From Byssothecium circinans (taxonomy: Eukaryota > Ascomycota > Dothideomycetes > Pleosporales > Massarinaceae), in contig ML976999.1 of the NCBI GenBank assembly GCA_010015675.1, positions 369,992 to 403,595 of the forward strand: 33,604 bases of DNA, in the 5' to 3' direction. Position numbers and translations under genes: made by a program. Position 1 is the first letter of the stretch. Each line of letters starts with the position of its first letter. The notes beneath the pieces were generated by a model. That model worked only from the letters and a program-made list of their open reading frames with translations. It did no database searches and was not told the origin of the DNA. This document shows, piece by piece, positions 21,606-27,541 of the stretch.

Positions 21606-21915
21606 TTTATTGTATTCGTGGGGGTAGCAAGACGCCAGCGGTAGGCCCAGGAAAAGATCGAAGCAATTGGAAGATACATGATGATGACGCGGTGGAGAGC
21701 GGAGCTGTGGAGTGCCAGACTTTTGGGAAACCAGTTTCTGAGAAATAAGAGGCGAGTGTGATATAAATGTGAGAAAGGACCTTCGCCGCACAGGCCTCCC
21801 ACTAACACCGTAGCAGGACACTAGTTGTTGGTGGCTTTGTGCCGCATCGCGAGCTTTTTGAATGCATGTAAGATATTGTGGGGACGCTGCGAGGACTTCG
21901 TGCCGCCGGCCACCT

Positions 21916-22065
21916 TTAGCGTATGCAGAATTCGAGGAATTCTTGGCGTATGCACAAGATTCCGATTCCCCCCCAAATCCCCGCCAAATCGTAGTTTCTA
22001 GTGAATCTCAGCCATTTCCACACCACATGGGCGAAGGCCGTCGTATCGTAAGTTGAGGCTGTAAA
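21916..22065 (+). repeat. left TIR of the two-gene element
   Basis: 150 bases, reverse complement of 25522-25671 with one difference (T at 22054 where the other copy reads C). It contains two GCGTATGCA direct repeats, a GAATTC pair, a run of seven C, an ATG at 22027 in context CACCACATGG, and a GTAAGT donor at 22048. Confidence 0.92.
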
Positions 22066-23269
22066 TACAGCTGTATGGGCCTATACTGACGACTTTTTGG
22101 TGTTGTAGGATCCCATAAGCCAGCTCAACCTGAGCAGGGCACCTACAGGGACGCGTCGCCTGCCGCCCAAAATCCCCTTTGATGATACTCTCCCATTACA
22201 CATTGCCTCAAGGCACGCTCAGGCGTATAGTCATCACCGCTCCTAGGTGTATCACTTACTAATGCTTAGTGTTAACTTTAAGGAGATCTAAATACGCGTT
22301 GGTGTTAACTACAAGTTCATATGGCGCGTCTATTAGAACCTAATGATGTATAGGTCTCTTTACACACCATGGTTTAGGAAGTTAGGGAGATAGCCCTCAC
22401 TTACGCAGGGGGATTACCAGGCGTTATTTAAAGAGCTGGCAGAGCATGGGTAGATGTTACAGCAGGAGATAGTATACTAGTTTAAGGTAGAGCGTGGTGT
22501 GAAGGTTAATTAATCTACTGTCTCCTATATGCTGGCTATAGAAGGATGGACGAGGAAGAATCTCTGGCTCCTCTCCCTTAGCTAGAGTGAGGATTTGCGT
22601 GATAATTATCACTACAGGATAAGTAACTACTTGGCGGATAAGCTAGTGTTTATCAACGAGTCTATCTTTAACGAGAAAACTAGGTAGAGGCAGCGCGCCT
22701 ATGGGCCTATAGGTGAGGAGAATTAGTAGGTTAGTAATGCTAGCCATGGAAAGTCCTAGTTAGTATTGCCAGCCTACACGCTCCATGATAGGTATCTAGA
22801 CTGTATAGGCATTAAAGAGGGATACTACAACCTTAAGGCGTTAATTAATTAGTTAGAGACTTAGCTATTTCTTATAATTAATCGTTAACTAGGCAGTTAA
22901 GCTGTGTATGTTGTACTAGATAACTGCTCAGTCTATTATAATAAGATTGTAGGTAATATTATCTAGAGAGCTAGCTATACAATATAGTACCTACCGCCCT
23001 ACTTACTAGACTATAACCTAATTAAGCTTACCTTCTTAGTGTTAAAGGCCTGGATTCAACGCCACTACTATTACTGCTAGTATAAGTTTGACGACTTTAG
23101 GGCCTTCCTTAGGTGGGTAGTTATTACAAGCCGTTATGATAGATTCTTAGTAGAGCACTTTAGGCACGCTAGAGGAGGAGGATTATACTTAGATAAGGCT
23201 ACGCTGAGTAGAGCAAGAGAGTAGCTAAGCGCGTATAAAAATGGGGAGGTAGATTTACTTATAATATAA
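22027..23269 (+). pseudogene. IS630/Tc1-family (DDE_3) transposase, RIP-inactivated
   Basis: Exon 1 (22027-22047) lies in the TIR and encodes MGEGRRI. A 61-base intron (GTAAGT, branch ACTGACG, acceptor TTGTAG at 22108) joins it in phase 0 to DPISQLNLSRAPTGTRRLPP. The frame is then continuous to about 23269 with no frameshift but many TAG/TAA codons. Recognisable parts are an N-terminal helix-turn-helix region (GDYQALFKELAEHG, STVSYMLAIEGWTRKN) and the DDE core: LVFINESIFNE, VVLDNCSVYYN, then YNLIKLTFLVLKAWIQRHY. The first catalytic Asp has become Asn and the final Glu has become Lys, both explained by G to A changes; the second Asp remains. It cannot be active. Family length is about 400 residues, as here. 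Confidence 0.85.
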
Positions 23270-23560
23270 CTAGAAATTACTACGTAGAAAACCTCCGCTT
23301 CCTACTTACATATCTAGTAGAGTACTAGCTACTTTATGCTGCTAAAAAGCTAGCTTAAACTGCTTTAAATAGCGCCTAAAACTCCTTACTATTTCGTTAG
23401 GTAAACTACAGCCTTACCCTATTACTATCCTGTACAGTTCTAATGATAGATTCTCCATTATCTTAAGGTTATTAAGAGTCTAGTACTTCGTAATTGCTAC
23501 CTCCATTACTTGCCAGTAGTCGCCCTATTAAGCCTCTGTTTTTTATCTCTGTATAACCTA

Positions 23561-25560
23561 CTAGAAAAACTGCTTAACAAGGTCATACTTATCCTTAGCT
23601 AGGTCGATAGGGCTTGAGGGCTACTAGGTTGGTAGGTGTAGAGTAAGAGCAGGTTAAATTGCAGGAGCGTACGGTGCAGCCGTCAGCGGCAGCTTATAGG
23701 TAGAGGTTTAATTTTATATAGGAAATAGCTAAGGATTTAACCCTTCTGTATAATAGGATACTACCCTCTACTGCTGGCCCTTAAACTCATTCCTCTCTTT
23801 CTCTAGTTTGCTTATCTCTCTAGCCTGTTTCTCCTCCATCTAGAGCTCCATCTTTTCCCTTATAAGCTCTATCTTCTCTACCATTATATTAGCCTATATT
23901 TGAAGCTGCATCTCCTGCATCTCCTACCTCTATTTCTTAATTTGCTCCCTCATCTACTGCGCTGGAGTCTGCTTGTTTAATGCTAGGTTACCTCTCTCTA
24001 TATGCCCTTTAGCGTATATCCTATGTTTACACTCATCTATGGCTGCCTATTTAGTAGTCTCATCACGCTCCATTATAGAAGCCTAGCTATCAATATCTAG
24101 CTAATCAAGCTTAAAGTGTAGGCTAGGTTTCTTAGAGGCGTTCTAGTAGCAGAAGTTATAATTATTTAGGCACCCTTCCTGTAGGCACCTCTACTACTTA
24201 TATAGCTGTTGTATAAAGTCGCCACGTTTAGCATACCTAGCAAGCTTAGTGACGGCGTTAACTTACTTTAGCTGGTTTAATCAATCGTTCCGTGTACCAC
24301 TTAGTATAGATAGGAGCGTCATTAATGGGGAATTAGGCTTAGTAATCCTCTTCTTCTCTACCCTAAGTTTACCGTACTTAGTAAGGGCAGAGCACTTAAC
24401 CCAGATCTCAAAGGTAAGCCTAATGGGCCAGGCTTAATAAGTAAAGTACTGGGAATCTGCTATATTAAGTATCCACTCTAGAGTAACGTCACCAAAATCC
24501 TTGAAGGTTTGCGAGTTATTCTACCCCTAGCCAGCTATACTCCTCACAATCACCTGCTGGTGCAGGAACGTAAACTCCTCCTTACTAACTTTGCCCTTAA
24601 TAGCCTTACGCACCAGCTACTCTACCTAGTTAAGGCCGCCCTTAGTAAGCGTTGAACGCTTCATGTCACCAGTCTTACTATCGTTGAGTACGTTGGCCTT
24701 GTTAACCCATACTTTCAACACTAGGTTGATGATGTAGTTAACCTTAACTTCACGGTTAACGCGGTAGTTAATCTCCTCGTCCTTAAGAAACTCCTTTATA
24801 GCGTACGTATTAGGCGTCTCCTTACTCCTCTACTTTAACTCACGCTGTAGATTTTTCTTTGCCTACTCACGCTGCAGGCCCTCCAGTGATAATGGCCGCC
24901 CGTTAAAGCCATGAGTACGAGGAGGTCCTACTGTACTTTGCTAGCGACGGTGAGCTTCATGAGTACGATCCTCGTACGCGCCGGCATCAGCCTTATCAAG
25001 AGCCTCTTCCTTACTGGAAATAGGTCCCTCAGTCTCCTCAACGCCCTCCTCAATAAGGTGGGCCCGGCCCTCTTGCATACGCTCTAAGTACGCCAGCTCC
25101 GCGCGCTTTTACTCTAGCTGAGCCTCCAGCCCTACTAGCCTCCTCCTTGGCAGCACACTTTGAAACGGATCGGGCGAGATAGCTCGCTCAGCAGGGCGCT
25201 TTCGCGGAGGACCTGGCGCCCGAGGAGTCGCAGGAGGTGCTTTGCCGCCTCAAGCAGGAGGTCGCCCACCGCGTTGAGCAGCTCCCTGGCGAGCAGCAAC
25301 TCCTCCACGAACAGGAGCAACAGGAGCAATAGGAGCAGGAGTTTGGAGCTCATCAAGGGCGGCAGCACTGTGGTTGTTGACGCCTTTTTGAGCTCTCTTA
25401 GAGCGACGCGTCGCAGTTAGTGTGGCTTTTAGGGGCATGGTATAGGCAAATCGGCTGAGTACTCGAAATCTCTGCAGTTGCAACATAAGAAAACGCGTTA
25501 GTATATGCCCTCACTAACAACTTTACAGCCTCGACTTACGATACGACGGCCTTCGCCCAT
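23561..25560 (-). pseudogene. accessory protein of the two-gene element, unknown function
   Basis: Exon 1 (25560-25540) lies in the right TIR and encodes the same MGEGRRI. A 68-base intron (GTAAGT, branch TACTAACG, acceptor CAACTGCAG ending 25472) joins it in phase 0 to RFRVLSRFAYTMPLKATLTA. The frame runs about 640 codons to 23561 with stops that look like RIP-made TAG, TAA and TGA but, as far as I can follow, no shift. The first 150 residues are Pro/Ala/Arg-rich and poorly RIPed. The middle has NREVKVNYIINLVLKVWVNK. A Cys cluster (RCLQEGCLNNYNFCY) suggests zinc binding. The C-terminal part (VEKIELIREKMELQMEEKQA) is a charged coiled coil. I do not recognise the family. Confidence 0.65.
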
Positions 25561-25671
25561 GTGGTGTGGAAATGGCTGAGATTCACTAGAAACTACGATT
25601 TGGCGGGGATTTGGGGGGGAATCGGAATCTTGTGCATACGCCAAGAATTCCTCGAATTCTGCATACGCTAA
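25522..25671 (-). repeat. right TIR of the two-gene element
   Basis: Inverted copy of 21916-22065. On the minus strand it presents the same ATG (25560) and GTAAGT donor (25539-25534) towards the accessory gene. Confidence 0.92.
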
Positions 25672-25692
25672 CTCGGATAATATACAGCGAGT

Positions 25693-25733
25693 GGTCAAAA
25701 GTTCTTTCCGCTAAGCGAGAAACACTAAAACGC
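25693..25733 (+). repeat. left TIR core of the Tc1-like element
   Basis: Matches 32868-32911 in inverted orientation. The right copy has two extra C/G bases in the middle and a few transitions. Confidence 0.75.
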
Positions 25734-27541
25734 GTGAACGCGTTAACACCTTCAACCTACCACCACAATGCCTCAGCCACGTTAGTTTGGTACAGAAATC
25801 TCTGGAAATGCCCGTAAAGGGCCAAATACTACTCCCCTAGAGCGTGAGCGTATCATCGCTAAGTGGGAAGCCGGGTGTACGACGAGAGAGCTAGCTAATA
25901 AGTTTGGCCGCACCACGCGCTGTATACGTTAAATCCTTTAACGATTCTCACACCACCACACTACTAAGGATTTGCCTCGCTCTAGCCGTCCAAAACACCT
26001 CTCTTAAAGACAAATTAATTAAATTAAATACTATATACGAAAGACACCAAAAATCGAGTACAATACGCTTATTAGTGAGATAGGATAGGACCCCTTTACT
26101 ACTAGCCCCTTACGCTCCACTATATACCCCGCGATTAGAGAGACTAGATTACGGAACTACCAATGCGTTAATAGGCCTAAAATCAACCGTGCGATAGCTA
26201 TTTTAAGGCTTAAGTGGTGCAGAGAGCATTGCAACTACCTTTAGCAGCGTCGTACCTATCGCTTCTCTAATAAGTGCTCTATTTAAAAGTGCTCTAGGGC
26301 TAATACCAAGTGGGCTTTTTAATATCCTAATAAGAGATAGAGTTATAGGATAGTTACTAAGTATACTAAGAGCCGTCCTCCTTAGCAAATAGTATAGGCG
26401 GAGGTATAGCTTACTTAAAAGGGTAGTATACGGAGGAGTGAATTAGTAATTATAAAAAGGGACCTATAAGCTACCCGCTAAGGATATATAACCTAGAGCT
26501 ATTTAGAGGCTTTAGAGGAAGGCTTATTACCCTATTACTAACTAGGAGAAATCTTTATACAGGATAACGCACCTATCCATACATTGGGCCTAGCAAAGGA
26601 TTTCTTGGAGAGGTACGGCATTTAGGTCGATAAGTGGCTACCCTACTCACCCGACCTTAACCCTATTAAGCACCTTTGGTGGAGGCTTAAAAGGATCATG
26701 TATACCAAGTTTCCTCAATTCAACAACTACTCAACTGCCCAAGAGCATTGGGATGAGTTTTGTAAGGCTTTGAAGGAGGTATAGCGGAGAATAACTTAAC
26801 GTGTTTTATCAGCAAGCTGCGTACATCAGCAAGCTGCGCACCCCACCAAGAAAAGACGCCTTCTTTGTATAATAGCTCAACAACGCCACAATAAATCGCG
26901 ATATAAATAGAACTAATAGATTTGGGCTATCTAGTAGTACACTGAGTCCTATTATAGCCTTGAACGTAACAGTTGCTGCACGTTGGTGGTACGCGACGTC
27001 GCTATGGTTAATCTCTCTGCTCACCCTCCTAAGCTACCCTATCAGCCTCTGTAGCAAGCAATTGACCTTCCTAAGCCTGTAGAGCGCCTCTATGGGCAAT
27101 ATACTGTCAGCGCTGCGTCTACTTACGCTCTCAACGCTGTACTGCTTCTCGAAGCTTTATAACTTCCTCTGTAAGGATAGTAGTTTGATGCATAGCAAGC
27201 TAGCACCCTTTTATAAGCTAGCGCATAGCTAGGATAGTAGGGCTCTGTGACTGCCGTTAAAGGCGGGCCTAAATAAGCTAAGCCTGCTGCTAAAGCTAAG
27301 CTACTGTATAAGGTGTCTTAGCTATCTACTATTCTCCTGCTACGGCTTCTATCTATAGTAGTAACGGTGTTCGTACAATAGTTAAAGATGAAAGGACGCG
27401 TTCTAAGCTATATAGGACTAGCCCTATTGCTTAAAAGCTAGCTTGGATATTCTCTACTATTAAGGCTATCGCTCTAGCCTAGTTATAGATAGATAGGAAG
27501 TCTACTTTATTAATATAGAAGATATATTAGCGAGCGAGCTA

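Follow-up and report, generated by a model that had tools for sequence, protein, structure and literature searches.

Transposons of the IS630-Tc1/mariner group have a TA target duplication as a defining trait, and MuDR-like Mutator elements make a target duplication of 9 bp. The portion of PMC3440606 consulted describes maize MuDR as an element with two convergent genes, one for the transposase and one for a second protein of unknown function. These lie between TIRs of ~215 bp that hold the promoters, and the start sites are in or just inside the TIRs (PMC3440606). In fungi, Sly1-1 of Neurospora is a DNA transposon with RIP-mutated copies that contains a transposase gene and an unknown second gene, according to the portion of PMC4592977 consulted. 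It belongs to the CMC superfamily and is 11.5 kb long, and transcription of its Chaetomium globosum homologs is divergent (PMC4592977). No description of a coding exon that is encoded in the TIR and shared by two genes was found in the literature searched, which was covered largely at abstract level.

The window (the whole 33,604-bp stretch of DNA that was analysed) holds a DNA transposon of 3,756 bp at positions 21916 to 25671. Left-right comparison defined TIRs of 150 bp at 21916 to 22065 (plus strand) and 25522 to 25671 (minus strand). They contain one mismatch in 150 positions, at TIR position 139, within the intron. The outer end of the TIR reads TTAGCG, and the left end of another copy, L014, reads GTAGCG. 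The motif GCGTATGCA has a first subterminal copy at 21919 to 21927 (plus strand) and a second copy in the left TIR at 21946 to 21954, and the pair is mirrored in the right TIR. The element is flanked by a 2-bp target duplication, CT, at 21914 to 21915 and 25672 to 25673. A second repeat (25683 to 26271) starts ~11 bp to the right of the element. It has 39 genome matches to the queried stretch, including itself, and a block of ~40 bp from it is also present inverted. The search for the empty site of the window copy with the left flank returned the left flank alone, and the right flank is this different repeat.

Both TIRs contain ATGGGCGAAGGCCGTCGTATC followed by GTAAGT, which corresponds to a start codon, the heptapeptide MGEGRRI, and a 5' splice site. 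From the sequence and the other copies, the left occurrence is the predicted exon 1 of the transposase gene (22027 to 22047, plus strand). GTAAGT at 22048 opens a 61-nt intron (22048 to 22108, plus strand) that has its donor in the TIR, contains ACTGACG, and ends in TTGTAG with the acceptor AG at 22107 to 22108. Exon 2 of the transposase gene (22109 to 23269, plus strand) contains 386 codons and a TAA stop and is RIP-damaged. The right occurrence, on the same grounds, is the predicted exon 1 of the accessory gene (25540 to 25560, minus strand). Its intron is 68 nt long (25472 to 25539, minus strand). It runs from GTAAGT at 25539, again in the TIR, to the CTGCAG acceptor at 25473 to 25472, and its branch sequence in the window copy is TACTAACG. 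Both introns have the branch site ACTGACG in the less mutated copies L012 and L014. Exon 2 of the accessory gene (23270 to 25471, minus strand) contains 733 codons and a TAG stop, is also RIP-damaged, and has an in-frame ATG of its own 11 codons in. With the seven codons of exon 1, the accessory frame totals ~740 codons. The two genes converge, and their stop codons abut (TAA at 23267 to 23269, plus strand; TAG at 23272 to 23270, minus strand). Any 3' untranslated part would make the two mRNAs overlap at 23267 to 23272, and antisense pairing would then be possible. The sequence-only reading had proposed the 7-codon exon and donor in each TIR, both in-frame introns, and the convergent genes, and all of these held. 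Its estimate of ~640 codons for the accessory gene was too low. The left TIR is open throughout in the MGEGRRI frame from 21916 to 22047 (LAYAEFEEFLAYAQ...). By eye, LLYAKI...LAFAK in P0124, a gene model from Clathrospora elynae, has a spacing similar to that in this translation.

We think it probable, from these sequence features, that the element is a DNA transposon with two genes and that its long TIRs are duplicated gene starts, shared by the transposase gene and the accessory gene. A TIR search of the 48.4-Mb genome to which the window belongs returned at least 17 TIR matches, at a minimum of 10 places. The window copy, L012, L014, and L017 are complete, and all four contain both genes. 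The sequence-only reading had recommended a search of related genomes with the 150-bp TIR for unRIPed full-length copies; the search of this genome added three full-length copies to that of the window. L009, L011, and L013 have both ends with an N gap inside; they were considered as chimeras, and this was dropped, as all three are copies with N gaps. L010, L015, and L016 have a single end followed by a gap. Single-gene copies would count against the shared arrangement, and none was seen among the 10 copies, six of which have gaps. The exon could be read through at 14 of the 17 TIR ends. It was exact at 12 ends and altered by RIP-type transitions at two, both in C74, where the left start is ATA and the right donor is ATAAGT. 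The 12 identical exons within one genome represent one event, not 12. The pattern ATG-GGN-GAR-GGN-MGN-MGN-NNN-GTNNGT, for exon and donor, occurred 12 times in the 48.4-Mb genome, every time at the ends of this element, and its backward-read control pattern did not occur there.

The copies are mutated to different degrees. The window copy is dense in transitions typical of RIP, and 265 of its 267 differences from L012 are transitions. The transposase frame contains two stops in C4, four each in C56 and C6, 20 in C23, and 25 in C74. It has one stop in the readable part of C34 and none in the 93 matched residues of C12. The accessory frames of L014 and L012 differ by three codons in a length-variable repeat (APVAPVAPV) and the copies are otherwise near-identical. 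L010 (546 to 582) and L016 (549 to 585) are on different contigs and in opposite orientation, and their positions beside the same 37-bp sequence agree to within 1 bp. This neighbour may be a repeat common to both places or a target that the element prefers. At three more distant DDE_3 loci (L047 to L049), the ~1.5 kb of flanking sequence examined contained no inverted pair on either side of the gene. Two scans of viral contigs returned no relative of the element, and phage records returned no match to it.

Target duplications were scored in seven of the 10 copies, those with both ends. The flanking dinucleotides matched in all seven (CT, TA, CA, AA, AT, AT, and AC), a result reached by 2 of 5040 permutations, and 3-bp flanks matched in none of the seven. 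The target duplication is any 2 bp, and TA specificity seems to have been lost in this DDE_3 element of the DD34E type. The proposed IS630/Tc1-type assignment fits the transposase and does not fit the target duplication.

The transposase frame of the window copy encodes DDE_3 (PF13358, E=1.6e-18), which is the sole Pfam family above its cut-off. Its relative P0004 is 63% identical and has 34 residues between D2 and E, and matches of P0004 to HTH_23 and HTH_32 are below their cut-offs. The RIP-mutated L014 keeps the DD34E spacing, with K where E is expected. The accessory protein has at least four database relatives (P0001 to P0003 and P0124). Both accessory searches were restricted to the ~7,990 candidates with the most shared words, so further members of the family may exist. 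A profile search returned two proteins, one of them new. The stretch W-x-C-x4-C-x-N-x4-C-Y is kept in all five aligned members, and P0124, outside that alignment, lacks its second C. The accessory protein was not assigned to a known family in Pfam, and four accessory proteins gave nothing above Pfam cut-offs. The AlphaFold model of P0001 is of low confidence (mean pLDDT of 56, pTM of 0.23). Foldseek with this model against the PDB returned nothing at E<=0.001, and a PDB sequence search with the accessory protein returned one match, at E=0.7. By analogy with the second gene of MuDR, the accessory protein may aid transposition.

RIP in the window copy increases with distance from the element ends. 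CpA/TpG sites were turned to TpA at 0 of 35 sites in the TIRs, 7 of 77 sites at 151 to 400 bp from the end, 36 of 112 at 401 to 800 bp, and 170 of 324 beyond 800 bp. In L017, the most mutated copy, 10 of 40 sites are mutated in the TIRs. The TIRs are unmutated and alike among copies because RIP fades towards the element edges. Coding selection, which had been put forward as the force that keeps the TIRs homogeneous, is therefore not needed for clean TIRs in mutated copies, and selection sparing the TIRs from RIP was dropped in favour of the edge gradient. The likeness of the left TIR to the right TIR (1 mismatch in 150) is not accounted for by RIP fading. It would be explained by selection, or by one end having recently been copied onto its opposite.

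We recovered a second subfamily (subfamily B) from the same genome. Homologs of both proteins form convergent pairs at eight further places (C24, C32, C5, C49, and others), and six of the eight are readable at both ends. The inverted repeat is 98 to 101 bp in C5, C24, C32, and C49b. In C49a and C29 the inverted match covers 77 and 75 bp, with differences in the outermost ~20 bp. The subfamily B TIR stops short of any splice donor. Its left leader contains GTAAGT, TACTAAC, and an acceptor, followed by ATG-TAT-CGC (MYRAHG, as in P0005 to P0007). The left donor is at position 136 in C24, compared with 133 in the first subfamily, and the sole ATG ahead of it falls within the terminal block, at position 10. 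The right leader has no GTAAGT and has an upstream ATG at position 158. In C24, the left leader aligns with the right one past the TIR to the start codon, scoring 44 where the best of 500 shuffles scored 30. In all six copies readable at both ends, 185 bp separate the start codon from the TIR motif ATTCCTT(A/G)GCGCCCT, on the left as on the right, and in the four copies with full ends the start codon is 212 bp from the element end. Two of these 12 starts, on the right side of C49b and C29, read ATA. Subfamily B ends are flanked by AT in all four examined, where duplication and repeat are inseparable.

At their termini the two subfamilies have matching blocks (TATGCA..CTTGGCG), with a score reached by 2 of 2000 shuffles. 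Their left introns match weakly, with a score reached by 67 of 2000 shuffles. None of the four pairings of whole leaders from the first subfamily and subfamily B scored above the best of 500 shuffles (28/29, 28/35, 28/34, and 32/34). We read both subfamilies as one inherited design, in which the entire 5' end of a gene would serve as the inverted repeat and would later have diverged from inside. The presence of both in one genome provides a comparison of long and short TIRs on the same design.

Relatives bear on whether exon 1 is coding. P0124 of C. elynae (Pleosporales) is an accessory homolog with 41% identity to P0001. It reads ...KYRY-MGEGRRL-TPPRRSRRTP, with MGEGRRL directly ahead of the accessory body, and ~2e-6 chance occurrences of MGEGRR are expected from composition in its first 60 residues. 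The P0124 model is a single gene prediction, known as protein only, and it extends upstream of MGEGRRL. There it contains LLYAKI, the translation of the subfamily B terminus CTATTATATGCAAAAATC, so the gene model seems to run through a TIR. The TIR translation and the first 75 residues of P0124 align with a local score of 36, and the best of 1000 residue shuffles scores 37, so the case from P0124 rests on the exact six residues beside a homologous body. The motif G-E/D-G-R/K-R/K was absent from the other 123 proteins found, which are mostly transposases and include P0001 to P0003. Coding use of exon 1 is favoured with moderate confidence. A different possibility, which we regard as rather unlikely, is that the TIR gives promoter, first exon, and donor to both genes, that the exon is a 5' leader, and that the proteins begin at ATGs in exon 2. 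MGEGRRI would then begin at an upstream AUG that is in frame by coincidence, and would be an optional N-terminal extension. Exon 2 does have an in-frame ATG in both genes of L012 and L014, and database starts agree with it: MSTNLSRAP of P0004 fits the transposase ATG (MSQLNLSRAP), and MPTT of P0001 and MPPKAT of P0003 fit the accessory ATG (MPPKAT). These starts may be gene-finder calls blind to the first exon. Subfamily B also agrees with a leader exon, as its exon 1 lacks an ATG near the donor and the start of its transposase is in exon 2. The placement of MGEGRRL in P0124, however, points to translation of exon 1, as does the fact that exon 1 is in frame with both genes. Scanning normally uses an AUG close to the mRNA 5' end first, which also argues against the exon-2 starts.

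The left and right introns align past the 150-bp TIR with a score of 33, where the best of 500 base shuffles scored 28, and they appear to be copies of each other. This homology, the subfamily B intron at nearly the same place, and MGEGRRL in P0124 make it very unlikely that the genes start inside the element and that the ATG and GTAAGT of the TIR are there by chance, with no role in expression. For the L012 leader, we fixed the donor and applied dinucleotide shuffling to the remainder as far as the ATG of exon 2. An intron in frame, complete with branch and acceptor, arose in 155 of 5000 shuffles on the left and 228 of 5000 on the right, so that, given a donor, 3 to 5% of shuffles per side produce one by chance. 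The two rates multiply to ~0.14% if the sides are independent, and their homology makes independence doubtful. A chimeric or nested insertion at this one locus might be suspected from the other repeat so close on the right. Such an artefact is hardly credible, however, as three more full-length copies occur elsewhere, each with its own 2-bp target duplication.

In the two-gene transposon with duplicated gene starts that we prefer, each TIR would contain a promoter and a transcription start. The start codon, the MGEGRRI exon, and the 5' splice site are seen in each TIR, and the exon is most likely coding; the intron end and the body of each gene lie just inside. Both proteins would come from mirror-image transcription units that converge on the abutting stops, share a 5' splice site and the 5' end of the mRNA, and encode one N-terminal heptapeptide. 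The probable origin is that the promoter, exon 1, and intron of one gene were copied inverted to the other terminus. The outer part is still identical in the first subfamily and the inner part has diverged; in subfamily B, the near-identical part is ~98 bp and exon 1 is non-coding. The earlier proposal of one TIR-borne module ahead of two genes is supported by the copies, by subfamily B, and by the C. elynae homolog. A wider claim for this Pleosporales lineage seems to us evenly balanced. It holds that the TIR works as a portable gene start, with promoter, ATG, coding exon, and 5' splice site in one block that is also bound by the transposase, that it puts the same N-terminal heptapeptide on two unrelated proteins, and that MGEGRR is kept across species. 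If true, one block of DNA would at once bind the transposase, act as promoter, and provide a coding exon and a splice donor. A second gene could be gained by a simple route, in which a copy of the 5' end of the first gene is made at the opposite terminus and any open frame is placed after it. Predictions would follow about the co-regulation of both proteins and about what makes some TIRs long.

Subfamily B shares with the window element the convergent homologs of both proteins, the leader intron, and the terminal TATGCA..CTTGGCG block. It differs in its TIR of ~98 bp that ends before the donor, in an exon 1 without an ATG near the donor, and in a right leader without GTAAGT. Like the fungal DDE_3 transposases of the IS630-Tc1/mariner group, the window element has DDE_3, DD34E, and a 2-bp target duplication. 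It differs from that group in its second gene, its 150-bp TIRs with exon and donor, and the duplication of any dinucleotide. MuDR has a MULE-type transposase where this element has DDE_3, and a 9-bp target duplication where this element has 2 bp. Sly1-1 is likewise fungal and RIP-mutated and has a second gene, and it differs in superfamily, in size, and in the divergent genes of C. globosum, as far as the portion of PMC4592977 consulted describes it. The parallel with MuDR drawn in the sequence-only reading, of two convergent genes with promoters in the TIRs, fits the portion of PMC3440606 consulted. That portion contains no coding exon and 5' splice site encoded in the TIR and common to both genes. 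We rate the element as a MuDR-like layout joined to an IS630/Tc1-type transposase.
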